This document shows positions 10,265 through 33,848 of a stretch of DNA of 50,849 nucleotides, one piece after another. The first letter of the stretch is position 1, and every line of letters begins with the position of its first letter. The notes beneath the pieces were generated by a model. That model had not been told where the DNA came from. It saw only the letters and a program-made list of their open reading frames with translations, and made no database searches. The translations under genes were made by a program, and so were the position numbers. The stretch is from Acidimicrobiia bacterium (GTDB taxonomy: Bacteria; Actinomycetota; Acidimicrobiia; IMCC26256; JAGNEX01), in assembly GCA_018003035.1 (NCBI GenBank), contig JAGNEX010000011.1, positions 13,238 through 64,086 on the forward strand. Direction: 5' to 3'.

Positions 10265-13200
10265 ATGGCGCGACCATTGTCGAAAATGTCTGGTGTTGCG
10301 CAGCGGAGGACGATTGCTGTTCTCGCGCTGCTTTTGATCCTGGCGACGTCGCTCGTCGTCGTTCCGGGGCTGCCATTCTTTGAAAAGTCCGAGGCGGGGG
10401 CGGTCGGCAATGTCGCGCCCACCGGGATCGTTGGCACCCAGATCGGTGGAGTCAACGTCGCCGGTCCGGGTGGTGTCGCTGGAGCGAACGCCTGGTTCCG
10501 CGCCGACTACGGCTATGCCGCGGGCGTTTGGCAGAACATGGCCGATGCGGTCAATGACACGCGTGCACCCAATGGGGTGCCTACGTTGGCGGCCGCAGAT
10601 GCGTCAACCAACTGGAACCCGTCGATCAAGATGGCTCGAGCTCAGCACCAATGGCTGGAGACGTTGAATCCGGTCAACACCACGCAATACGTGGGTTCCG
10701 GTCCGGCCGTAATCGGCGATTCTGCGCTCTATGCCGTTGGGAGCCAAACGGGCTACCAAGGGCACCACTGGGCCGACTTGGCAGCGATTGGTCCACGCAG
10801 CGGCTCCGGTGATTACAACGACTGGGCCGTTCTCCACGTCGACTGGATCAATCAGGGCAACCGTCGCGTTGGAGACGGTGAGCCGTGTTCGTCACCAGAA
10901 TGTTGGGCGACGGCAGGTGCGCCAGCTGGTGCCTACGGCAACGCCGACTTTTGGAGCCGTGAGGGGTACAACGCAAATCTCTCGGACTCGAACGGCGTGA
11001 ACGACGTCCAGTACGGATCGACGGTTACCAACCAATCGCAGATCTATGGTGTCGAGTTCACTCCCGACGTACTGAACGACGTTGAGATGAAGCTGAATGG
11101 CAGCACCGGTGTGCTCGGCGGCGACCGCTTCGTGCCCAGTCGCCCCGCGGGAGTGATGGCTGCTGCCGACAAAGTGCTCGGAATCGGCGGGTCGCTCTAC
11201 CAGCCCGAGAACTGGGACGGCAACGTCACCGAAGTCGTTCACTTCCCGAACCGACTGACCGCTCAACAAGCACAACAGGTCGAGTCGTACCTTTCGATTC
11301 GATCGGGCGTGACGCTTCGCGACTCCGCCGGTACAGGCGAGTACCAATACATCCTCTCCGATGGCAGCGTCGTCTGGGACGGTGCGGCCAATGCCGCCTA
11401 CCACAACGACGTCTTTGGAGTCGCGACCGACTACGCCGCGGCTCTTCAGCAAAACAAGTCCACATCGCAGAGCTACCCCGACCTGACGATCGAGGCGACG
11501 TCGGCTCCGGCCAACCTCACCGGTTCGATGTTTGGTAACAACGGCCTGTCCGGTACGACGCCGTACAGCTCGACGGTGCTCACACCCACCGACGCACAGC
11601 GGTTGAACACGGTGTGGAAGGTTTCTGACACCGACGCCCTTGGGTCGGTCATCATCACCCACGCCAACCAGGATGCGTTCCTCTACGACGCTGCCTGTGA
11701 CGGGACCTTCGAAACCGAGCTGGCGATGGCAGCCAACTCGATCACGTACGACCTGGCCGACGGTTCATGTTTCACCTTCGGAACCACCAGCTTTGCTCCG
11801 GGCGGCGTCAGCGCAGGGCTTCGCGCCTGGCACCGAGCCGACCGAGGCACCCTGGCCAGCGGAGCCCCCGTGGCTGCTGGCGGCAACGTCGCCCAATGGG
11901 TTGACCAGAGCCCGAGCGGCGCCGACGCCATGCCGAACACTCGTCCCGGTTTGACGGGCGGATGCGCCAATGTCGCGGTTCCAACGGCAAGCGATTGCGA
12001 CGGCACCCCATACCTTGAGCTGCCCAGACTGCGAGCCGGTTCAGGGTCGACGAACACCAACTTCAACCCGTATCTCGAGTTCAGGAGGGTTGACGGGGAC
12101 ACTGGTTCAAGCCTCGCGACTCGAATCCCCGTCAACGACACCATGGGAGCAGGTACCGGCGAGCCAGCGACCTTCTTCGGTGTCGGTACGAACACTGGGG
12201 CGCCGATCACGGTAGGAAACGGCGGCGCGAACTGGGCCGACCTTATCGGGCTGGAAGCGAATGCCAACCCCAACTGGTTCGTCATCCACCAGGAGAACAA
12301 CGCGCCGCCGCAATGCACCAACAGTTCGGTTGATGTGGCCCTTCCGACACCACGACCGGTTGCTGACATCTGGGCCGATGGCGGTGCCGACTGCAACTAC
12401 GCGGACTTTGGCTACAACGAAATCGCGTTGCTTGGGGCCCAAGGAAACCCTGCTGCGCCGCTCTCCAACTTTGCCGGGTACCTCAACGGTCTGACCCACA
12501 CCTTTACCGGTAACGCTGGACCAACCACAGCTGCCGATTCTCTGACACCCAAGCGTCTTTACTACGGGGCAGGTTCTTCCGACCTGGATCAGACGTGGCC
12601 GGGACCGATCACTGAAGGATTTGTCTACGACCGACTTCTCACCGCAGACGAACTCGCCAGGGTCCAGAGCTACGCGGCGCTCCGCAACGGCATCACTCTG
12701 GAAGGCTGGGATGAGGAGATCACCTACGACTACCTCAACTCGGGCTCTCAGGTCATTTGGCCGGGGAACACGAACTCAACCTTCAGCCCATTCCACGAGC
12801 GGATCACCGGTGTCATCAGTGATCTGCGTTCCGACCTCTACCAGCAGATCTCCGAAACGGTTCATGGCGACACGTTGACCTCTGGGGACCACGTCATTCT
12901 GGCGGCCGGCACGACGACCGACTTCACGTCGGCCAACGAGAGCGCTGGACGCACCAGCTTGCCCGTCGGCACGTCGGTGATCTTCGGTGACGACAACCTG
13001 ACGACGAACGCATGGGGGACCTACACCGGCGACGTCGTTCCCGGCTTCCAGCGCATCGAACGCACCTGGCGTGTCCGCCAGAACGGCGCAGCCGGACCGG
13101 TGTCACTCAAGTTTGAGAACAATGTCGTTCCGAACCTTCCGACCACGGCATCACGCGTCTTCTTGGTCATTGACCGTGACAACGACGCTGGATCGACAGC

Positions 13201-16200
13201 GCCAATGTTCACCGACGAAACCCAGTTGATTGAAGGTGTCTCGGACGGCGCCGGCGGGTTCATCTTCCCGGGCGTTTCCTTCCCGGTAGGCGACTCGGCG
13301 TTCACTCTGATGACCGGCGACCCGGTCAACTTGGTGGTCACCAAGACTGCTGACCGTGCGACGCACTCCGGTACTGGCAACGCGGTGTACACCGTCAGGA
13401 TCATCAATCTCGGGCCCAGCGACGCGGTCGGAGCAACCCTGGCGGACACGCTTCCAGCAACGGCGACATGGACCTGTGCTGCGACGGTCGGGGCGACGTG
13501 TCCCGCAGCGTCCGGCGCTGGGCCGATCAGCGCTGCGACTGGAGCGTTCAACGTCGGCGTTGGAACCGGCGGTGACATCACGACGTACCCGACCGTCACC
13601 TTTACGGTCACCGCTCCGATGTCGGGCACGTCGGACATCGTTAATACCGCACAGGTGTCGCCATCTGCTACGCAGACCGATACCGACTTGGCGAACAACA
13701 CCTCGTCGGTGGTGGTCGAGTACGTCCCTGCGACCAAGACGGACCTTCAGATCAGCAAGGCCAGCGTCGCCCAAGACGGCAGCAACGTCTTGTACACGCC
13801 GGGTGACACGATCACCTACACCGTGACCATCACCAACGCCGGACCTCTGTCGGTGCCAGACGCGATCGTGACCGACGTCATTTCGGCGAACGTCACCGGT
13901 GCAACGGTGACCTGTTCCGATGCTGCCGCCCCGGGTGCTGGTACTTGTCCCGGAGCTCCGGTTGCCTTTGACGGCGCAGGGCAGCTTTCGCTCGGCGCCA
14001 TGGATTCCGGTGACGTGATCGTCCTAACGATTGCCGGGACCGTCGCTCCGAACAAGACCGGTGACCTGGTCAACACCGCATCTGTTGCGTCGGCGACGGT
14101 GCCCGACACCGATGAGGCCAACAACACGGCGACCGTTACCGACGTGATGTTTGCCAAGGCCGACCTCACGTTGGACAAGTCGACGGCGGACACCGTCGCC
14201 ACGCCCGGTGGAACGGTGACCTACACGCTGACCGTGACAAACGATGGTCCTTCGGACACCACGACGACGCTGAACGACACGCTTCCTGCCGACTTCGCAT
14301 CAGGCACGTGGACCTGCGTCAACGATGCCACAGATGCGGGCGCCGAATGTGCAACCGCTTCGGGTGTCATGCCGCTGAGCTTGGCGTTGACGCTTAACGC
14401 TGCTGAGTCGGTCACCGTGACGGTCGTCGGCACCTTGAACGACCCGCTGGCCAACCCGACCGTTACGAACACGGCATCGTTGACCACGACCGTGTACGAC
14501 CCAGCGACAGCTGACAATTCGGACTTCGCGGTGTTGCCGGTCGACTCGGACCTAGACACCGACGGTGACGGCCTCACCGATGCTGAAGAGATCGCCCTGG
14601 GAACGAGTCCTACCAATCCGGACACCGACGGGGACGGCTACACCGATGGTGAGGAAGCCAACGGGGTAGATGATCCATCAACCCCTGCGGTTCCGGCGGG
14701 GGAGAGCGACCCGCTTGACCCGTGCGACCCGAACCCGAACGCCGGTCCTTGCGATCAGGACAATGACGGGCTCACCAACGCCCAAGAGGCCCTGCTCGGG
14801 ACAGACCCGACGGATGCCGATACCGACAACGACGGTCTGACCGACGGAGAAGAAGTCCTCGAGCATTCGACGAATCCTCTGGACTCTGACACCGACAACG
14901 ATGGGCTTTCAGACGGCGAAGAGGTCGACGGTGTCGACAGCCCGGCTACGCCTACCGTGGCGACCGGCGTCAGCGATCCGCTCGACCCGTGCAGCCCGAC
15001 GGCTGGTGCGGCATGCACCACCGACACTGACGGTGACGGCCTGACCGATTACATAGAAGGTCAGATCGGCACCGACCCGAACGATCCCGACAGCGACAAC
15101 GACGGTCTGACCGACTGGGAAGAGGTCATCGAACACCAGACCGACCCATTGGACCCTGACACCGACGGCGACGGAGTCAACGACGGTGCCGAGGTGAATG
15201 GCAACCCGGGCAGTGACCCGCTCGACGCCTGCGATCCAGATCCGAACGATCCGCTGTGTGGTACGACTCCTTCGGTAGACACCGACGGTGACGGCTTGAC
15301 AGACGACGTCGAAGAAGCCATTGGGACGGATCCCAACGACCCTGACACCGACGGTGATGGTCTGACGGACGGCTACGAAGTGGGCACGTCCCGGACCGAC
15401 CCCCTCGACGTCGATACCGACAATGACGGTGTCGAAGACGGCGACGAGGTCGATGATGGAACCGACCCGCTGGACCCCTGCGACCCCGTGGCATCCGCTG
15501 CCTGCACTCGGGACACCGACGGCGACGGCCTGACCGACTACCTGGAGGGCATCCTCGGGACCAACCCGACCGATTCCGATACGGACAACGACGGACTCAC
15601 CGACGGTGATGAAGTCTTTGAGTATGGAACCAACCCAACCAAGTCAGACACCGACGGTGACGGTCTGACCGACGGTCAAGAGGTGAATGTCACCAACACC
15701 GACCCGACCAACGCCGATACCGACGGCGATGGTCTGACCGATGGTCAAGAGGTCAACACGATCGGCACTGATCCGCTGGATGAGGACACCGATGGCGATG
15801 GCTTGACCGATGGCGAGGAAGTGTTTGAGCACCACACCGACCCGCTGGAACCCGACACCGACGGTGACGGGATCGACGACGGCGATGAGGTCGACGCGGG
15901 TACCGATCCGCTAGATGCCTGCAGCCCGAACATCACGGCTGACTGCGAGAATCTGGACCCCGACGGCGACGGCCTGACCAACGCTGAAGAAGACGATCTT
16001 GGAACCGACCCGGACAGCTCCGACACCGACGGTGATGGAGTGAACGACGGCGACGAGGTAGACGATGGAAGCGATCCGCTCGACCCGTGCGAACCGAATG
16101 AAAACTCCCCGGCATGTTTGGGGACGGACTCTGACGGTGACGGACTCACCAACGCCGAAGAGGATGCGCTGGGTACGGATCGAAACGATTCAGACACCGA

Positions 16201-17227
16201 TGACGATGGTCTGAGCGACGGTGACGAGGTCGACGAGTACGGGACCGACCCGCTCGACGACGACACCGATGGCGATGGCATCAACGACGGCGACGAGGTC
16301 AATGGAGACCCCGAATCCGATCCGACGGATGCATGCGATCCCGATCCGACGAACTCCGCCTGTGACCAGGACTCCGACGGTGACGGGCTTACCGACGGCG
16401 AAGAGGAGGAAGCCGGCACGGACCCTGATGACGGAGACTCTGACGATGACGGTGTCACCGACGGGGACGAGGTCGACGATGGCTCTGATCCGCTCAATGC
16501 TTGTGACCCGGACCGGACTGCTGACGCCTGTGTCGACAAGAACGACAACGGGATCCCCGACGCTGTCGAGGCACTGGAAGGAGACCTGCTTGCGCAGTGT
16601 GCAAGCTTCGGTCCGTACGTCCCGGGTCAGGCGATCGACTATCGACTCGACTCGAGTCTGGTCGCGGGTAGTCGAGTTCGGGTGTACATGTACTCCACCC
16701 CAACACTCCTGTACGACGGCACGGTGCCTTCAAACCGGTTGATCCAGATCAAACCGCTCGCAGGGACCGAAGGTCGCCATTCGTTCATCCAGTTTGGGTG
16801 GAACGCTGCCGGCGGCCAGGTCGTTGCAGGCTGTGCGGCCGTGGGTCAACTGGCAACGGGCAATGCTGGCGGCAATACGGGTAGCGGCTCTGGCAACACC
16901 GGTACGACCGGTGGAACCGGGGGGACCGGAGGCAACGGCAACTCTGCGGCCGGTTCCGGCGGCGGCAGTCCGTTCCTCTCTGGGGGCGGTGGCCAGGGTT
17001 CTTCCCAGGCGGCCAATCCACCGCAGGTTGCTCGGACAATCACGACTTCGTCCGACGTTGTCGCCCCGAGCGTTGCTGCTTCGGGAACAACGCCCCGTGC
17101 GTCGGCGGGCGGTGTCGCATTCACCGGCAGCAACACTCCGCTGCTGTTGGGGGTAAGCGGACTGTTCATACTGCTGGGTGTTGCGCTGCTGTGGCGTTCA
17201 CGTCGTCGGCCTACGGGGGTGTCGTAG
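10265..17227 (+). CDS. Giant secreted surface protein: LamG-like, DUF11, thrombospondin type 3 repeats, sortase-like tail
   Basis: A 2320-residue extracellular protein. The N-terminal signal peptide has a basic start, the core [16 protein letters not shown], and a likely cleavage after SEAGA (residue ~45). Two related LamG/concanavalin-like modules follow (about 60-500 and 510-1015), with shared phrases such as AWFRADYG / AWHRADRG and LSIRSGVTL / AALRNGITL. Three DUF11-type Ig-like domains (about 1018-1430) show motifs such as [13 protein letters not shown]. Then come about 25 [12 protein letters not shown]-type calcium-binding repeats (about 1430-2100), a short Cys-containing domain, a Gly/Ser/Thr linker, VAFTG (2284-2288), a membrane helix and RSRRR. 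VAFTG resembles the LAXTG signal of class E sortases. A role in adhesion or cell-surface structure is inferred; no sortase is in the window. Confidence 0.9.
14555..16569 (+). repeat. Array of ~25 thrombospondin type 3 (DxDxDG) coding repeats with periodic Cys pairs
   Basis: Each unit encodes [12 protein letters not shown] or a close variant, often followed by a GTDP or TDPLD turn. Eight times the array is broken by a segment with two Cys about 7-10 residues apart (such as [12 protein letters not shown] or [11 protein letters not shown]), giving a higher-order period of two to five repeats. The Asp-rich loops are the known calcium-binding form of thrombospondin type 3 repeats. Confidence 0.9.
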
Positions 17228-24372: not shown

Positions 24373-25539
24373 ATGGAAGTCGAGATCGGCATCGGAAAGT
24401 CAGGGCGTCGAGCGTACGGGTTCGACGATGTCGCCATCGTGCCGTCCCGAAGGACGCGCGACCCACAGGACGTCGACATCACCTGGGAACTCGACGCCTA
24501 CCGGCTCGAACTGCCTTTGATGGGCGCCGCAATGGACGGCGTGGTTTCACCACAGACCGCCATCGAGATCGGGCGTCTAGGAGGGCTCGGGGTGCTCAAC
24601 CTCGAGGGGCTCTGGACCCGATACGAGGACCCCGAAGGAATCCTCGAAGAGATCTCGAAGCTGAACGCCGAGAAGGCGACCCTTCGAATGCAAGAGATCT
24701 ACGCCGAGCCGATCAAACCCGAACTGATCACTCAGCGCATTCGTGAGATCAAGGCAGCTGGTGTTCCGGCCGTCGCATCCTTGACCCCGCAGCGGACCGA
24801 CGCGTACGCCAAACACGTGTTGGCTGCAGAGCTCGACATCTTGGTCATCCAAGGGACTGTCGTCTCTGCTGAACACGTTTCGAAGACGGCCGAGCCGCTC
24901 AACTTGAAGAAGTTCATCCGCGAGTTCGAGCTGCCCGTCATCGTCGGCGGGTGCGCTTCGTATTCATCTGCCCTTCATTTGATGCGCACCGGCGCAGTGG
25001 GCATCCTCGTCGGAGTCGGCCCAGGCCACGCGTGTACGACCCGCGGCGTACTCGGCATTGGAGTCCCGCAGGCGACAGCGATTGCAGACGCTGCTGGGGC
25101 CCGGATCCGTCACCTCGACGAAACGGGTGTGTACGTCCACGTCATCGCAGACGGGGGCATGCGGACAGGCGGTGACATCTCCAAGGCGATCGCCTGCGGC
25201 GCCGACGCCGTCATGATCGGCTCGCCGTTGGCCAGCGCCTACGAAGCTCCCGGTCGTGGTTACCACTGGGGTATGGCCACTTTCCATCCCGACCTTCCTC
25301 GTGGCGCTCGCGTCCACGCCGGGCAGAAGGCATCCCTCGAAGAGATCCTGGTTGGGCCAGCTAACGAGAACGACGGAACGCTCAACCTCTTCGGTGCACT
25401 CCGGACGTCAATGGCCACCTGCGGGTACGAAACCGTTAAAGAGTTTCAGAAGGCCGAGGTAATGGTCGCTCCGTCGCTACAGACCGAAGGCAAGGTGCTG
25501 CAGCAGGCTCAGCGAGTCGGCATGGGCGCCAAGTCGTAA
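24373..25539 (+). CDS. guaB3: GuaB3 family IMP dehydrogenase/GMP reductase-related protein
   Basis: A 388-residue TIM-barrel enzyme of the IMP dehydrogenase superfamily without the CBS pair. The catalytic loop is present: GVGPGHACTTRGVLGIGVPQ, with the Cys that forms the thioimidate with IMP/GMP, and the phosphate-binding parts ADGGMRTGGDISKAIACGADAVMIG and LFGALRTSMATCGY. Of the actinobacterial GuaB paralogues this is the GuaB3 type; some members act as GMP reductases, so conversion of GMP to IMP is possible. It begins at ATG after GGAAGGG. The usual neighbour guaB2 is absent, while guaA lies 7 kb downstream. Confidence 0.9.
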   Translation: MEVEIGIGKSGRRAYGFDDVAIVPSRRTRDPQDVDITWELDAYRLELPLMGAAMDGVVSPQTAIEIGRLGGLGVLNLEGLWTRYEDPEGILEEISKLNAEKATLRMQEIYAEPIKPELITQRIREIKAAGVPAVASLTPQRTDAYAKHVLAAELDILVIQGTVVSAEHVSKTAEPLNLKKFIREFELPVIVGGCASYSSALHLMRTGAVGILVGVGPGHACTTRGVLGIGVPQATAIADAAGARIRHLDETGVYVHVIADGGMRTGGDISKAIACGADAVMIGSPLASAYEAPGRGYHWGMATFHPDLPRGARVHAGQKASLEEILVGPANENDGTLNLFGALRTSMATCGYETVKEFQKAEVMVAPSLQTEGKVLQQAQRVGMGAKS

Positions 25540-25557
25540 CGCCTCGGCGATCGTGGT

Positions 25558-25591
25558 CCGCGAGCCCGCCCACCTGTGGCGGCGCTCGCGG
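25558..25591 (+). terminator. Hairpin after guaB3
   Basis: CCGCGAGC with CCGCC pairs with GGCGG and GCTCGCGG (13 bp with one bulged C) around a 7-nt loop, 18 nt after the stop. No U-tract follows. Confidence 0.55.
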
Positions 25592-25657
25592 TCAGGCGAT
25601 AAAACGGACAGGACCGGCGAACTCGTCAACTACGCCCTTAAACCCAGCCCCTATCGA

Positions 25658-25663
25658 TAGGCT
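25658..25663 (+). promoter_or_regulatory. -10 box of a leaderless promoter for the GlmS-like gene
   Basis: TAGGCT ends 8 nt before the ATG and no Shine-Dalgarno is present. Confidence 0.45.
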
Positions 25664-25671
25664 TGGCATCC

Positions 25672-28600
25672 ATGTGTGGAATCGTCGCCGTAGTACCCCG
25701 TCTTCCAAGCCGCGGCGCGCCAGACCTTGCGGAGCTCAACGACAAGGCCTCATCGGCGTTAACTCAGCTCGATTCGGTGGGCTCAACGCCGGAGGCACAG
25801 CGCCTTGAAGGCATCGCTCGTGAGCTCGCGGATGTCAACGACGCACTGCGTGGCGTCCCTGGCGTGCGAGCGATCCTTGATGCGCCCGGCCCAGCTGCCG
25901 AGCTGTCCGCGACCTGTGCTCGGATCGCCGATCACATAGCGAAGGTCGAGGCCGGACTCGATGAAGGTGGCGTGACGGCCTCTGAACTCGAAGCGGTCAA
26001 CGCTGCGCTCGTCGCAATCAAAGACTCCCAATGGGCGATAACCCGGGATCGGATCCCGGCCGCGCAAGCCGTGTCGAACCTGGTCGGAGCGAACGGCTCG
26101 ACCAGCGCGTTGGCCGTCGCAAACGCGATCAACATCGCCTTGGACGCTGTCGACCGCCTCGAAGTACGGGGCCGGGACTCCGCCGGGATCCATCTCCTGA
26201 TAACCGGCCACGGCCTTGACCTTTCAACCGAGACCAACGGTCGGCGCCTGGCAGACCGTTCGTCCGATCCGCTGTTCCGCAACGGTTCGGTACGCCAGAC
26301 TGCCGATGGTGCCTTGAGCATCGTCTACAAAGCCGCCGCCGAGATCGGTGAGCTGGGCGACAACGTGCGTGCAATCCGTACAGCGATCACCGAAGATGAC
26401 TTGCTGGCCGACGCGTTGACCAGTCCCGACGCTCAGGTGATGGTGCTTGGTCACACGCGGTGGGCGAGTGTCGGCATCATCAGCGAGGCGAATGCGCACC
26501 CGTTGAACTCGGATGAGGTCACAAGCGCCAGCACGTGTGACCTCCCCTACGCGGTCGGCGCGCTGAATGGCGACGTCGACAACTATGCAGACATCAAGGT
26601 CGCACGGCGCTTGTCGGTACGCCCCGAGATCACGACCGACGCCAAGGTGATCCCAACGGCGCTGTCTCATGAAATGGCCGCAGGTGGTCCCGTCAGTGAC
26701 GCGTTTCGGCGGGCGATTTTCGATATGGAAGGTTCGGTGGCAATCGCAGCGCAGGTCGCCGCTGAGCCAGACAAGATGTTGTTAGCGCTGCGGGGCAGTG
26801 GCCAGGCGCTTTATGTTGGCTTGGCCGATGACGCGTATGTCGTCGCAAGCGAGTTGTACGGGATCGTCGAACAGACCGACCGCTACATCAGGCTCGATGG
26901 TGAAGGGCTCTCCAACCCCGAGAACCCGGCGAGCCGCGGGCAGTACATGGTGCTTGAACGCGCTGATGCTGGGACGCTGCAAGGGGTGACGCGGTTCTCG
27001 TACGACGGGACCGAGTTGCCTGTCGCGGAGGGCGACGTCCATGGCGCTGGGATCACCACACGCGATATCGACCGCGGTGACTCCCCGCATTTCTTGCTCA
27101 AAGAGATCTCCGAGGCGCCGTCGAGCATGCGCAGAACCCTTCGCGGCAAGATCGTCGATCGTGACGGCCGTTACGAGGTTCGGCTGCCAGAGATGACGTT
27201 GACGGGCGCGGTTCGGGACCGGATCAAGTCCTGCAACACCATCTACGTCATCGGCCAGGGCACGGCATCCGTTGCCGGTAGGGCAGTTGCGGGAGCGCTC
27301 GATGAGGCGTTCGGCGGCACAGACATTCGTGTGCGACACGTCATCGCAACCGAGCTCTCTGGCTTTCATATCCGTCAAGACATGAGCGACAGCCTCGTCG
27401 TAGCGATCTCTCAGAGCGGGACGACCACAGACACCAACCGCACTGTCGACCTCGTCCGGGCGCGCGGGGCAGTCGTGGTTGGCATCGTTAACCGCCGTAA
27501 CTCCGATCTGGTTGAGAAATCCGACGGCGTGCTCTACACCTCTGACGGCCGTGACGTCGAGATGAGTGTCGCGTCGACCAAAGCGTTCTACGCACAGATC
27601 GCCGCTGGATTCCTCCTGGCCCTCGGCTTGGCGGCCGAAAGCGGTCGCGTCGAAAGTAGTGGCCTGCCCGAGGCACAACACCGCCTCTTGGTCGCTCTCC
27701 GGCAGTTGCCGGACGCCATGACCGCCGTGCTGGGCCAGCGAGCCCATATCGCAGAGGTAGCGCGGCGGTACGCACCGCCCCGCCGCTCATGGGCTGTCGT
27801 GGGGAATGGGCCGAACAACGTCGCCGCGGAAGAGCTGCGCATCAAGCTTTCGGAGCTCTGTTACAAGGCGATCGCCTGCGATGTGACCGAAGACAAGAAG
27901 CACATCGACCTGTCTTCTGAGCCATTCATCTTGGTGTGCGCCGCGGGGTTGCGTGGTTCGACGGCGTCAGACGTCAGCAAAGAGGTGTCGATCTTTCGTG
28001 CCCACAAGGCAGCTCCGGTGGTGATCGCCACCGATGGAGCCGATGACTTTGTGGACGCCCTTGACACGATCAAGGTTCCCGATGTCGACCAGCGACTCGG
28101 CTTTGTGCTTTCGGCGATGGCGGGTCACCTGTTCGGTTACGAGGCGGCATTGGCGATCGACGCCCAGGCCAACCCGCTGCGGAACGCCCGCTCGGTGATT
28201 GAGCACATCGTCACCATCGGCGCGACGGGTGAAGAAGCGCTCACTCAACTTGCACATGGGCTCCGGCCGCACGCCGATGCCTTTTTCGTGTCCCTCGCAC
28301 GGGGCGAGATGGACGGGCAGCTCGAAGCCAGTACCGCCGTGTCGGTCGCGTCCTTGTTCAGGTATGCGCTCGGCGAACTCCCCGTATCGGCGTATGAGGC
28401 GGCATTCGGTCGGGTGGGTTCACCTGCCAACCTGGCCAGTGACCTGAATGGAGCGCTCAGCGACGCCATCGACCAGCTGACCAGACCGGTTGACGCAATC
28501 AAACATCAGGCAAAGACGGTCACCGTTGGAATTTCGCGCCTCGACGAGACGCTGATGGATTCCCGCTTGGTGCAGGCCGTGTTCGACGCCGGCGCTGGGC

Positions 28601-29106
28601 GCGATTCGCTGAATTACCAGGTACTCAAGACGTTGAGCGCGTTGGATGCGGCGGTGGAATCGGTCACCGGCTTCACCCGATACCGCCTGTACGGCGACGA
28701 TGGCAACCCAATGCTGCAGGTTGTGAGTAAGGGTGGGATCGCCGAATCGATCCCGTCGCGAGTTGAGAGCGACCCGACCCTTCGCGGCACCAAACGGACC
28801 GCGGCCGAAGTGCCTCGGGTGCTGGTGGCGCAGGGCCGACGTGACGGTCGCACCGTGATCATGGTGCCAGAGGGGCATCGGGGTCGTAGCGACGGACTGA
28901 CGCTCTTGCACGTTCGCCTTGTTGACGATCTGGATGAGCGGACTGCCCGCACCGTCCTTGAGGGGTACGCGCATCGCTACACCGATCTTCGCGATCTGGT
29001 TACCGAGACCGAGCCCTCCTTTGACGACCGCGTGTTGGAGCGAATCTCGGTGCTCGACCTTTTGACCGAGTCGGTTCAGAACCTCGCCGAGCTGTGGCGG
29101 GCCTGA
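25672..29106 (+). CDS. Expanded GlmS-like glutamine amidotransferase/sugar isomerase protein
   Basis: A 1144-residue relative of glucosamine-6-phosphate synthase, which is usually ~610. It must start at ATG-TGT because Cys2 is the Ntn nucleophile (MCGIVAVV). A ~140-residue helical insertion then separates this strand from RGRDSAG (166-172). The rest of the glutaminase domain is recognisable: GHTRWASVG, EANAHPL, LNGD (Asn299-Gly300) and TTDAKVI. Two SIS domains follow, with SQSGTTTDT (580-588), EELRIKLSELCY (Glu721 aligns with E. coli Glu488) and His744 aligning with His504. The position of the Fru-6-P Schiff-base Lys603 is Arg840 (NARSV against LAKSV). A further ~290 residues have no fold I recognise. 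It could be the organism's GlmS or a paralogue with another substrate. Confidence 0.85.
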   Translation: MCGIVAVVPRLPSRGAPDLAELNDKASSALTQLDSVGSTPEAQRLEGIARELADVNDALRGVPGVRAILDAPGPAAELSATCARIADHIAKVEAGLDEGGVTASELEAVNAALVAIKDSQWAITRDRIPAAQAVSNLVGANGSTSALAVANAINIALDAVDRLEVRGRDSAGIHLLITGHGLDLSTETNGRRLADRSSDPLFRNGSVRQTADGALSIVYKAAAEIGELGDNVRAIRTAITEDDLLADALTSPDAQVMVLGHTRWASVGIISEANAHPLNSDEVTSASTCDLPYAVGALNGDVDNYADIKVARRLSVRPEITTDAKVIPTALSHEMAAGGPVSDAFRRAIFDMEGSVAIAAQVAAEPDKMLLALRGSGQALYVGLADDAYVVASELYGIVEQTDRYIRLDGEGLSNPENPASRGQYMVLERADAGTLQGVTRFSYDGTELPVAEGDVHGAGITTRDIDRGDSPHFLLKEISEAPSSMRRTLRGKIVDRDGRYEVRLPEMTLTGAVRDRIKSCNTIYVIGQGTASVAGRAVAGALDEAFGGTDIRVRHVIATELSGFHIRQDMSDSLVVAISQSGTTTDTNRTVDLVRARGAVVVGIVNRRNSDLVEKSDGVLYTSDGRDVEMSVASTKAFYAQIAAGFLLALGLAAESGRVESSGLPEAQHRLLVALRQLPDAMTAVLGQRAHIAEVARRYAPPRRSWAVVGNGPNNVAAEELRIKLSELCYKAIACDVTEDKKHIDLSSEPFILVCAAGLRGSTASDVSKEVSIFRAHKAAPVVIATDGADDFVDALDTIKVPDVDQRLGFVLSAMAGHLFGYEAALAIDAQANPLRNARSVIEHIVTIGATGEEALTQLAHGLRPHADAFFVSLARGEMDGQLEASTAVSVASLFRYALGELPVSAYEAAFGRVGSPANLASDLNGALSDAIDQLTRPVDAIKHQAKTVTVGISRLDETLMDSRLVQAVFDAGAGRDSLNYQVLKTLSALDAAVESVTGFTRYRLYGDDGNPMLQVVSKGGIAESIPSRVESDPTLRGTKRTAAEVPRVLVAQGRRDGRTVIMVPEGHRGRSDGLTLLHVRLVDDLDERTARTVLEGYAHRYTDLRDLVTETEPSFDDRVLERISVLDLLTESVQNLAELWRA

Positions 29107-29308
29107 CCGTTCTGGGGTCGCCCCGTATTCTCGGTGTCGCCGCCTAACCCTCGGAGCCCTCGGCCCGTTGCCTAACATCGACGGGCGCAGCGAGCTTTAG
29201 CGTCTGTTGCCGGTTCTCTTGTCGAGCAGTGTGCTTCTTGGCGGGTATGGCATGCGGCGGTTGAGGCGTCTGCCTGACACAAGTCGTCTGATGTTTTGGG
29301 AGTGCGTC

Positions 29309-30310
29309 GTGAAGCGTCTTCTGGCTCTACTTTCTCTGTCATTGTTGGTGTTCGCAGCGTGTGGCTCCGACGATGGTTCCAGCGCTCAGGACGACCGAGC
29401 TGCCGCTGGTGATGCCGAAAGCGGTGAGACCTTTTGCGACCTCTGGGACGAACTTGTCGACCTCCGCGATAGCTCGAAGCCGTCGAGCGAAGAAGAGGCA
29501 GACGAATACGCCAAGAAGGGTGCGGATATCACCGAGCGGATGAAGGGCGTTGTCGACGCCGACGGTGAAGACGCCGTTGCCGAAGCGAACCTGTTCTTCG
29601 TCGAGGCCGAGGATCCGGACGCTGGCGACATGGACCTGCTGACCGACTACGCAGAGGAGACCTGCGACGCTGAAAGCGCCGGAGACTCCAAAGCCGCTGG
29701 TGACACCGACGCAGGTGACACCGACGATGGCGTTACTACGACCCAAGCGGAGGACGCCGACGAACCGGTCGACGGGGACTCAAAGACCGATGAGGCGACG
29801 ACCGACGAGAAGCTGGAAGAGCTTCGGGCCCAATGTGAAGAATCGGGCCTCGACAACTGTGATGAGATCGTCGAGTCGGTCACGTCTTCGAGCGACGGGC
29901 CCCAGGCCTACGGCGACGACGAGGAGCTCGACGCTCTCTGGGACGAATGCGAAGAAGGCAACTGGAAGTCCTGTGACGAGCTGTTCATGGACTCAGCGCT
30001 CGGTTCTGAATACGAGGCCTTCGCTGCGTCGTGTGGCGACCGGCTCGAGACCGAGGATTTCTGCGTGGCGATCGCCGATGAGCTCGAAGATGTCGAACCC
30101 GACACGACGAAGTCCGACGCGGATGAGCCTAATGACTACGGGGATGACGACGCCCTCGACAAGCTCTGGGATGCATGCGCCGACGAGGAATGGGAGTCGT
30201 GCGATCAGCTGTTCCAAGACTCACCGATGGATTCGGCATATGAGGCCTTTGGCGCTTCGTGCGGCGAACGGATCGAGACGGAGCAAGACTGCGCGACCGC
30301 CATGGAGTAG
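29309..30310 (+). CDS. Acidic lipoprotein with duplicated Cys-containing module
   Basis: A 333-residue lipoprotein. GTG follows GGGAG and opens a signal peptide (KRLLALLSLSLLVFAAC) with lipobox FAAC. A helical segment with FCDLWDELVDL comes next, then an acidic Asp/Glu/Thr linker. The C-terminal half holds two copies of a ~57-residue module: YGDDEELDALWDECEEG...CDELF...YEAFAASCGDRLE and YGDDDALDKLWDACADE...CDQLF...YEAFGASCGERIE. Each has three core Cys (WD-x-C, SCD, SCG) and a fourth near its end. I know the LDALWD...CD.L...YE.F...CG pattern from other actinobacterial exported proteins, but its function is unknown. A longer frame starting upstream lacks a signal peptide at its end and was rejected. 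Confidence 0.85.
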   Translation: MKRLLALLSLSLLVFAACGSDDGSSAQDDRAAAGDAESGETFCDLWDELVDLRDSSKPSSEEEADEYAKKGADITERMKGVVDADGEDAVAEANLFFVEAEDPDAGDMDLLTDYAEETCDAESAGDSKAAGDTDAGDTDDGVTTTQAEDADEPVDGDSKTDEATTDEKLEELRAQCEESGLDNCDEIVESVTSSSDGPQAYGDDEELDALWDECEEGNWKSCDELFMDSALGSEYEAFAASCGDRLETEDFCVAIADELEDVEPDTTKSDADEPNDYGDDDALDKLWDACADEEWESCDQLFQDSPMDSAYEAFGASCGERIETEQDCATAME

Positions 30311-30393
30311 GCCATGATGTTCGCCGGAAGCGGCGCACAGGGCGGCCATGAGCGATCGGCGAGTGGCGAGCCAACAGCAGGGGCGGGTCGACG

Positions 30394-32154
30394 ATGCCTG
30401 AGACGTTCAATGATTCGGGGATGCCCGGCGATACAGGGCAGCCGGCCGGTTCTGAGCAGCCGGGCCGGTCAGCGGATGGTGAGACCTTCGATGATGTCAT
30501 TATCGGAGGCGGCCTCGGCGGCCTGACCTGTGCGGCCTACCTCGCTGCCAGGGGTCACCGAGTTCTCGTGGCAGAAAAACATGACATCACCGGCGGGAAC
30601 TCGATGGTGTTTCGCCGGCGCGGTCACGAGTTCGACGTCGGGGTCCACTACATCGGCGAATGCCAGCCGGGAGGTCTGATCAATCGGATCCTGGCCGGGT
30701 TGTCCCTCGACGACCGGATTCGTTTTCGGCCCATGGACGAAATCTTTGACGTGCTGGTCTTTCCCGACCGCACGTTGGAGATTCCGGCGGGCTGGGATGC
30801 CTACAAAGATGCGATCGCCAACGCATTCCCCCAAGAAGCGGACGCGGTCAGGGCGGTGATGTCCACCCTTGAACGGGTCGCTAATGCCGCGATGCGTCGC
30901 CCGGATTCCGACCTGGCCGATCTGTTCGAATCGGGCCTGCTACCCCTAACGACGCTGTTTGATCGCCACGATCTGTCCACGTCAGCACGCGGCGCTCTGT
31001 CGCACTGGACCGGGCTCTACGGTTCTGGACCCGATGAGTCAGCAACAGTCATCCACGCGATTCTCGCCGACCACTACATGCGCGGCGCTTTCTACCCCGA
31101 AGGCGGGGGACAGATGTTTTCGGCACGGCTCGTCCAAGTGATTGAGGCGTGCGGCGGTGAGGTCCGCGTCGGCGCGCAGGCCGAGCGGATCCTTTCCGAC
31201 GACGAGGGTCGGGCGATCGGCGTTCGTTTCGACGACGGCGCGACCGTCCACGCAACCAACGTCATCTCGAACGCGGACTATCGGCGTACGGTGCGCGAGC
31301 TCGGCGCCGACCTGAACTGGTCCGACCAGACGCGGAGCCACGCCGAAGAGGCACATATGGGCTATCCGCTGTTCTGCGTCTACGTCGTGATCGAAGGCGA
31401 CTTCGAACGCCACGTGAACAACTCCAACTTCTTTGTCTTCAGCCATGACAACGTCGCCGAAACGTTTGCACGGCTGGCGAATGGGCAGATCGAAGACAGG
31501 CCGTTCGCGTACATCTCGGTCGCGTCCCGCAAAGACCCGACCAACGCCCAACTGGGTCCGCCGGGGTTCACCAACTTCCAGATCATGACCTTGGCTCCCA
31601 CCGACTACACGATGTGGGGTGTGGCCGACGGTCCGACCGGTGGTGAGAAGTACCGCCGGAAGGATGACTACCGCTCGGCGAAAGCGAAGTTGCAGGACGA
31701 CCTGATCGACCAGGCAGAGGTCGCGTTGGGGCCTTTTCGTGACAGGATCGTCTACGCCGAATCAGCGACGCCGCTGACCCAGGAGCGTTACACCCGTTCG
31801 ACCGCGGGTTCGTCCTACGGCCTGGCACATACGCCGAACGCCGTGGGGCCGCTGCGTCCGGGCTATGGCACCGATATCCCGGGTCTGTTCCTGGTCGGGG
31901 CGAGCGCTCCCGGCGGCCATGGCATTGCGGGCGTGATGGCAGGCGGTTTGGGTGCTGCCAGCGAGGTGCTGGGTGAGAACCTGAGCCGTTCGGTGATGGC
32001 CGGCGAACGGGTTTTGGCAAGCGATGTCGTCCCACCGGACGACGACGACTTTGACCCGTACGAAATGGCTCGGGGACTGGCGATGCGAACCCGTCGGGCC
32101 GAGGGTCGTGCTCAGCGTGCCGCCCGCAAGGCGAAACAGGGTCAGGCGACCTAA
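30394..32154 (+). CDS. CrtI/RetSat-type FAD-dependent oxidoreductase
   Basis: A 586-residue flavoprotein. After a ~30-residue polar leader comes the Rossmann FAD motif DDVIIGGGLGGLTCAAYLAARG with the following VAEKHDITGGNS, as in phytoene desaturase and retinol saturase families. Further landmarks are FDVGVHYIGE, YPEGGGQMFSARLVQVIEACGGEVRVG, NVISNADYRRTV and the C-terminal FAD motif GLFLVGASAPGGHGIAGVMAGG. Members desaturate, saturate or isomerise polyene lipids such as carotenoids; the substrate is not identifiable here and no other carotenoid genes are near. The C-terminus is basic (RRAEGRAQRAARKAKQG). It starts at ATG after GGGGCGGG. Confidence 0.88.
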   Translation: MPETFNDSGMPGDTGQPAGSEQPGRSADGETFDDVIIGGGLGGLTCAAYLAARGHRVLVAEKHDITGGNSMVFRRRGHEFDVGVHYIGECQPGGLINRILAGLSLDDRIRFRPMDEIFDVLVFPDRTLEIPAGWDAYKDAIANAFPQEADAVRAVMSTLERVANAAMRRPDSDLADLFESGLLPLTTLFDRHDLSTSARGALSHWTGLYGSGPDESATVIHAILADHYMRGAFYPEGGGQMFSARLVQVIEACGGEVRVGAQAERILSDDEGRAIGVRFDDGATVHATNVISNADYRRTVRELGADLNWSDQTRSHAEEAHMGYPLFCVYVVIEGDFERHVNNSNFFVFSHDNVAETFARLANGQIEDRPFAYISVASRKDPTNAQLGPPGFTNFQIMTLAPTDYTMWGVADGPTGGEKYRRKDDYRSAKAKLQDDLIDQAEVALGPFRDRIVYAESATPLTQERYTRSTAGSSYGLAHTPNAVGPLRPGYGTDIPGLFLVGASAPGGHGIAGVMAGGLGAASEVLGENLSRSVMAGERVLASDVVPPDDDDFDPYEMARGLAMRTRRAEGRAQRAARKAKQGQAT

Positions 32155-32267
32155 ACCCGCCTGGTCGATCGGCCGAGGGTCACTCCTTGGGACCGAACCG
32201 AACGGTAGCGCTGAACGCCGGTTCGTGGCCTCGGTACCGGTTTGAAAGGCCCCTGAGGGTGCTCTGT

Positions 32268-32273
32268 TAGCCT
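32268..32273 (+). promoter_or_regulatory. -10 box of a leaderless promoter for guaA
   Basis: TAGCCT followed by exactly 6 nt and the GTG start codon, with no ribosome site between. Confidence 0.5.
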
Positions 32274-32279
32274 TCGACG

Positions 32280-33848
32280 GTGGAGCACCGAAACACAAGC
32301 ACTCATGGCCCAGGCGCTGACGTGCCTCCGGTTCTGGTCGTCGACTTTGGCGCCCAGTATGCGCAGCTGATCGCCCGCCGAGTGCGCGAAGCCAACTTCT
32401 ACTCAGAGATCGTCCCCCGGGCGATGAGGGCAGCTGACATCGCGGCACGCAAACCGCTGGCGTTGATTTTGAGCGGGGGCCCGAGTTCGGTCCACGCTGA
32501 CGGCGCACCGCTTGCCGACCCCGAGATCTTTGATCTGGGTATCCCAGTCCTCGGCATCTGTTACGGGGCTCAGCTCATCGCCCAGCAGATGGGTGGCAAC
32601 GTTGCTCCGACAGGACTCCGGGAATATGGCGAGACCGAACTCGCTGTCGTTGCAGAGTCGGTGCTGTTAAACGGCCAACCCCGCGAGCAGACGGTGTGGA
32701 TGTCGCACCGCGATTCAATCGTCGAGGCACCCGACGGCTTCGTAGTGACCGCCTCCAGCGCGGGCGCGCCCGTGGCAGCCCTTGAGGACGTCGACCGGCG
32801 TATTTACGGTGTCCAGTACCACCCTGAGGTGGCCCACACTCCGTACGGCCAGGTAGTGATTGAGCGCTTCTTGCGTGAAGGCGTTGGGGCGACACCGAAC
32901 TGGACCATGGCCTCGATCATCGAGTCATCGGTCGCGGCGATTCGCGACCAGGTCGGCGATGGGACTGTCCTGTGCGGGCTCAGCGGGGGCGTTGATTCCT
33001 CGGTGGCTGCCGCTCTGGTGCACCGGGCGATCGGCGACCAGCTGACCTGCGTTTTTGTGGATACTGGACTTCTGCGGCAAGGCGAAGCCGAGCAGGTCAT
33101 CAAGACCTTTGAGCAGCACCAGGGCATCAAACTCGTTCACGTCGACGCCTCAGAACGGTTCTTTCAGGCCTTGTCGGGGGTCACCGATCCCGAAAAGAAG
33201 CGCAAGGCGATCGGTGAGCTGTTTATTCGCGTCTTCGAAGACGCTGCCAAGGATGTCGATGACGCAGAGTTCTTGGTGCAAGGCACCCTGTACCCAGACG
33301 TCATCGAGTCCGGCGGTGGGGACGCCGCGACGATCAAGAGTCATCACAATGTTGGCGGCTTACCCGCAGACATGAAGTTCTCGCTGGTGGAGCCGTTGCG
33401 CAGCTTGTTCAAGGACGAGGTCCGCCAACTCGGCCTCGAGCTCGATCTGCCCGAAGAGATCGTGTGGCGCCAACCGTTCCCCGGTCCTGGGCTCGGCGTG
33501 CGAATCATTGGCGAGGTCACGCCTGACAAGGTCGAGATTCTGCGCAATGCCGACGCCATCGTCCGCTCCGAGCTCAAACGGGCAGGCCTAGAACGAGAGA
33601 TCTGGCAAAGTTTTGCCGTGTTACCCGATATCCGGTCAGTCGGTGTGATGGGTGACGAGCGGACGTACGCGTACCCAATCATCGTGCGTGCGGTAACCAG
33701 TGAAGATGCGATGACGGCCGATTGGGCCCGCATCCCGCACGACGTCCTGGCGTCGATTTCTCGTCGAGTGATCAACGAGGTCGAAGGGGTCAATCGCGTG
33801 GCGTACGACATCACCTCCAAGCCGCCGGGCACCATCGAGTGGGAGTAG
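32280..33848 (+). CDS. guaA: GMP synthase (glutamine-hydrolysing)
   Basis: A 522-residue enzyme converting XMP, ATP and glutamine to GMP, the last step of guanine nucleotide synthesis. The N-terminal class I amidotransferase has Cys94 in [15 protein letters not shown] and the His181-Glu183 pair in YHPEV. The ATP-pyrophosphatase domain has the PP-loop [11 protein letters not shown] (from residue 234), [21 protein letters not shown] and IKSHHNVGG. The dimerisation domain has [18 protein letters not shown] and ends [11 protein letters not shown]. The GTG start matches a leaderless promoter six bases upstream. The dtd gene follows after four bases, so the two are co-transcribed. Confidence 0.97.

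Follow-up and report, generated by a model that had tools for sequence, protein, structure and literature searches.

GlmS makes the first cell-wall amino sugar and catalyses the committed step into UDP-GlcNAc, hence into peptidoglycan. To our knowledge, bacterial GlmS is usually assumed to have a fixed domain plan. In the ordinary enzyme the C-tail is the free C-terminal end of the chain and constitutes a mobile connection from one active site to the other. According to a review, isomerase catalysis relies on Glu488, His504 and Lys603 (PMC9272926). In E. coli, the C-tail is restrained by a salt bridge, Arg331-Glu608 (PMC8041777). Both Trp74 and C-tail residues are needed to seal the ammonia channel (PMC7948480). 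Protein-level feedback control has been described for the eukaryotic enzyme; for bacteria, the same review describes expression control instead (PMC9272926). The eukaryotic GFAT-1 and GFAT-2 are regulated and possess added sequence affecting tail position and coupling (PMC7948480, PMC8041777). Their glutaminase core is followed by an internal loop of 46 residues, and their C-tail stays the C-terminus. Another enzyme relevant here is L-GDH180 of Mycobacterium smegmatis (PDB 7jsr), an actinobacterial enzyme of nitrogen metabolism enlarged with PAS/ACT-like domains (PMC8175468).

We analysed a stretch of 50,849 nucleotides from an Acidimicrobiia bacterium, referred to as the window. It encodes a giant GlmS of 1144 aa, compared to about 608 aa for the bacterial enzyme (E. 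coli; TIGR01135 / PRK00331), so that an earlier estimate of nearly twice the normal length was right. Giant and bacterial GlmS share an Ntn glutaminase domain, two SIS domains, a C-tail and the main catalytic residues. The giant differs by two large insertions (139 and 107 aa), a 192-aa extension and a C-tail that is internal.

Domain layout and catalytic residues

The gene for giant GlmS (glutamine--fructose-6-phosphate aminotransferase) is an uninterrupted ORF on the + strand (25672..29106), running over 1144 amino-acid codons from an ATG at 25672 to a stop that ends at 29106. This ATG was favoured over an upstream TTG at 25663 because the relatives used begin with MCGI, as the N-terminal nucleophile mechanism requires. 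The assignment rests on profile matches as well as on this conserved start, and Pfam recognises SIS and GATase_6 domains in the product. Boundaries of insertions and extension were set by alignment against 51 standard GlmS sequences. All coordinates below refer to the same strand.

According to alignment and structural model, residues 1-9 (25672..25698) make up the opening strand of the Ntn glutaminase domain and include the nucleophile Cys2. This strand is separated from the first glutaminase helix by a 139-aa insertion, predicted all-helical (residues 10-148, 25699..26115), close to the ~140 residues proposed previously. Pfam and alignment place the remainder of the glutaminase (GATase) domain at residues 149-443 (26116..27000); it keeps Arg263-Trp264, His276, Asn299-Gly300 and Asp323 and contains smaller insertions at residues 177-210, 231-244, 280-288, 411-422 and 432-437. 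The two SIS (isomerase) domains, supported by Pfam, alignment and fold match, span residues 473-832 (27088..28167), carry Ser580-Gln581-Ser582, Thr585, Lys725, Glu728 and His744, and include a 5-aa insertion at residues 515-519 relative to the 51 standard sequences. They are followed by a 107-aa insertion, helical in the model (residues 833-939, 28168..28488), by the C-tail motif VDAIKHQAKTVTV identified by alignment (residues 940-952, 28489..28527) and finally by a 192-aa C-terminal domain (residues 953-1144, 28528..29103), for which model and fold search predict an alpha/beta fold like that of PAS/GAF-type sensor domains. The C-terminal extension of ~290 residues given in the preliminary description is indeed added sequence, but it consists of two pieces (833-939 and 953-1144) flanking an ordinary C-tail. 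The first of these pieces contains Arg840 (with the surrounding residues at window 28179-28197), which is invariant in all 69 aligned giants although other GlmS lack this insertion. An origin of the additions by internal duplication was rejected: when duplication was looked for, the helical insertions and the C-terminal domain showed no mutual similarity.

The catalytic lysine was located by aligning E. coli GlmS, normal Acidimicrobiia GlmS and giants together. E. coli Lys603 (PRNLAKSVTVE; LAKSVTVE) aligns with Lys948 of the giant (QAKTVTVG), with identity over AK-[S/T]-VTV. The standard C-tail PRNLAK[S/T]VTVE pairs with DAIKHQAKTVTVG, residues 941-953 of the giant, 108 residues downstream of residue 840. 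Lys948 is invariant (69/69 giants), and the Schiff-base lysine is thus present within QAKTVTV even though the tail is internal. Glu728, His744 and Lys948 are the counterparts of Glu488, His504 and Lys603. Glu721, picked out in the preliminary description, is conserved too, but the catalytic glutamate is Glu728.

The long homologues, whose alignment had been recommended earlier, proved uniform in their main catalytic residues. Besides Lys948, Cys2, Arg263, Trp264, Asn299-Gly300 and all the SIS residues named above are invariant in the 69 sequences, which bears out the earlier statement that Cys2, Asn299-Gly300 and His744 are kept. On the glutaminase side, this covers the MCGI start with its Cys nucleophile and the equivalents of the glutamine-binding residues Arg73, Asn98-Gly99 and Asp123; at the Fru6P site, it covers the equivalents of Ser347-Gln348-Ser349, Thr352, Lys485, Glu488 and His504. 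Elsewhere, positions that do not vary in standard GlmS are substituted in every giant: Arg for Tyr28; Val, Ile or Met for His77; Gln for Cys300; Ile for Gly505; His for Asn600; and Gln or His for Leu601. Kinetics or coupling may therefore differ.

Predicted structure and proposed control through the tail

The structure of the whole protein was predicted with 69 sequences (mean pLDDT 87.7, pTM 0.80). Both large insertions are helical in the model, whose confidence drops very low mainly in the C-tail itself (941-955, <50). The top fold matches were human GFAT-1 and then E. coli GlmS, which also gave the best PDB sequence matches; GFAT-1 and GFAT-2 have neither the helical insertions nor the C-terminal domain of the giant. 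When predicted alone, residues 953-1144 reached a pLDDT of 91.6. Their top Foldseek match was to part of the structure of the large glutamate dehydrogenase L-GDH180 (E 3e-4, probability 1.0, TM 0.54, rmsd 7.4), a likeness in fold only (17% identity) with an enzyme whose catalytic core is unrelated to giant GlmS. The next matches were weaker and mostly to GAF or other sensor domains (GAF E about 0.003-0.05), and a single weak match was obtained among viral structures. Sequence profile searches yielded no convincing Pfam family or PDB sequence relative for this region. The domain is thus predicted to be PAS/GAF-like from a moderate fold match without a sequence match.

The point of fusion coincides with a known restraint of the tail. 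The Arg331-Glu608 lock, nearly universal in the 51 standard sequences, is lost in giants: at the fusion point Gly953 stands in the place of Glu608, and Arg331 is not conserved. Trp74 is kept (Trp264). A domain fused at the tail is well placed to control coupling.

We propose the following scheme. Cys2 would hydrolyse glutamine and the ammonia would go on to the SIS domains, where Fru6P would be converted to GlcN6P, with Lys948, Lys725, Glu728 and His744 acting as Lys603, Lys485, Glu488 and His504 do in E. coli. The C-tail would be held on both sides, by the helical insertion before it and the PAS/GAF-like domain after it. Binding of a small metabolite by the added domains (perhaps an end product, e.g. 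UDP-GlcNAc), or a change in assembly, would move or lock the tail and in this way control glutaminase-synthase coupling. Allosteric control of coupling through the C-tail is the best-supported idea for the extra domains, and a GlmS whose added domains control coupling in this manner is probably the best explanation overall. For regulation through the tail taken by itself, we would put the chances at about even. The regulated form suggested in the preliminary description remains plausible in view of a predicted PAS/GAF-like domain located directly on the mobile C-tail.

The principal alternative is an ordinary constitutive GlmS in which the additions are purely structural, stabilizing the oligomer or shielding the ammonia path with no ligand sensing. 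The three large additions are predicted to be well folded, two as simple helical bundles; the resemblance to sensor domains is no more than moderate and backed by no sequence family; and the fused domain could simply compensate for the lost Arg331-Glu608 lock. Against this, the C-terminal domain is conserved about as much as much of the core (mean column identity 65%, A3), many of its residues (Arg, Lys, Asp and Tyr) are invariant and not obviously needed by a pure scaffold, and the large additions flank the coupling element, which is known to be mobile. We consider a purely structural role possible, with a substantial minority of the probability, and keep control of coupling through the tail as the preferred reading.

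Identity, distribution and gene order

Among NCBIfam models, GlmS families were the best for both halves of the protein over residues 251-839 (241 and 225 bits, cut-offs 381 and 418). The giant thus misses the curated equivalog cut-off (225 bits against 418), and the other listed giants are also well below it. Since this threshold was built on standard-length sequences, a score under it argues for a separate subclass and not against GlmS function. The tree points in the same direction: over 602 columns, 14 giants formed one clade (SH-aLRT 100) that is not nested in the class's standard GlmS, on a stem of 7.75, a length that is not reliable in detail, nor hence is the deeper placement of the clade. 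With full clade support, a score of 225 vs 418 bits and fixed insertions, the new GlmS subclass suspected earlier is supported.

The window's own genome (92.8% complete) was searched for a second, normal-length glmS, as had been advised; none was found, and the giant is the only recognisable copy. Of 41 genomes searched in its order, 3 have a standard GlmS and nearly all others have the giant. The former (G006, G017 and G004; L002, L003 and L004) carry no giant, and the two forms alternate within the order. We extended the survey to 394 genomes of the class with completeness of at least 90%. Standard GlmS scored above the curated cut-off in 193, and the giant's C-terminal domain was detected by profile search in 190 (tool count 191; G170, a weak match with E 4.3e-4, was left out). 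Comparison of the two tables by hand revealed no class genome with both (0/394). G364 and G304 have a giant together with fragments of a standard gene that score below the cut-off; in G364 these are divided between two frames, and in G304 they lie at the edge of a contig. Outside the class, strong matches occurred in seven genomes of the phylum, six of them without standard GlmS above the cut-off. Standard and giant GlmS are both present in G461 (L163 and L173), whose 5% contamination may reflect a mixed assembly. Contamination or assembly error as an origin of the giant layout was rejected, given its recurrence in complete single-contig genomes (G015, G042, G062, G128, G158) and in the named isolates Aquihabitans sp. 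G128 and IMCC26207.

Gene order was examined in 68 loci of named relatives. In 63, glmM lies directly upstream on the same strand, usually 90-290 bp away; in the remaining five, upstream sequence was limited. In most of the loci checked, the class's standard glmS is likewise preceded by glmM, and the giant therefore occupies the normal glmS slot, a further likeness to bacterial GlmS. All nine giant-bearing genomes checked, eight of them single-contig, have glmM above the cut-off and GlmU matches, some of the latter below the model's cut-off, as in several controls. The window (24373-33848) is an exception in its gene order: giant glmS lies between guaB3 (upstream) and guaA (further downstream), and the genome carries its glmM on a different contig. 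Elsewhere in the window, 10265-17227 codes for a probable large surface protein of 2320 aa, which contains bacterial TSP3 repeats and DUF11 domains.

The one-for-one replacement, the glmM-adjacent slot and the retention of glmM and glmU homologues lead us to infer that the giant is very probably a functional GlmS that produces GlcN6P from Fru6P and glutamine. It is the only GlcN6P source found in a genome with glmM and glmU and, as judged from sequence, we are confident in taking it as the cell's GlmS. A shift in substrate, whether to some other ketose phosphate or to another cell-wall precursor, might be read from the standard-fixed positions that differ in all giants, the very long clade stem and the score well under the equivalog cut-off. 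However, the equivalents of the phosphate-binding Ser-Gln-Ser...Thr and of Lys485, Glu488, His504 and Lys603 are invariant, giant and above-cut-off normal GlmS coexist in no examined genome except G461, GlcN6P must come from somewhere as glmM and glmU homologues remain, and the gene follows glmM in most relatives. We regard such a shift as very unlikely; the enzyme acting on another sugar evoked in the preliminary description is countered by the retained Fru6P-binding and catalytic residues of a sole GlmS and by its one-for-one replacement across the class with glmM-glmS order in relatives.

A true replacement of the Schiff-base lysine by Arg840, as first claimed, is weaker still and can practically be dismissed: Arg840 is invariant and the first phmmer local alignment ran into this region, local matches to E. 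coli GlmS stopping near residue 840, but the stretch belongs to the 107-aa insertion, and the better alignment that had been named as decisive places at Lys948 a lysine invariant in all giants, with six-residue identity (AKTVTV) to standard GlmS of the same class, so that the Lys-to-Arg change was an alignment error.

Significance of a GlmS with an internal tail

No description of a giant GlmS form was found in the literature searched, which covers few subscription papers. As a variant of a known enzyme, the giant does not constitute a new type of system. Because it scores under the curated naming threshold, annotation may miss it, and pipelines or pathway reconstructions relying on this threshold may call its hosts GlmS-less. 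As a domain is naturally attached to the C-tail, the giant also offers a direct test of the coupling of glutaminase and isomerase through this element.

About half of the sampled genomes of the class, and a few outside it, rely on a form of near-double length in which the catalytic tail is not the end of the chain. Tentatively, and a little short of an even chance, an actinobacterial branch may have swapped ordinary GlmS for an allosterically controlled giant with a sensor domain on the tail that couples both active sites, which would place entry into cell-wall synthesis under feedback control at the protein level.
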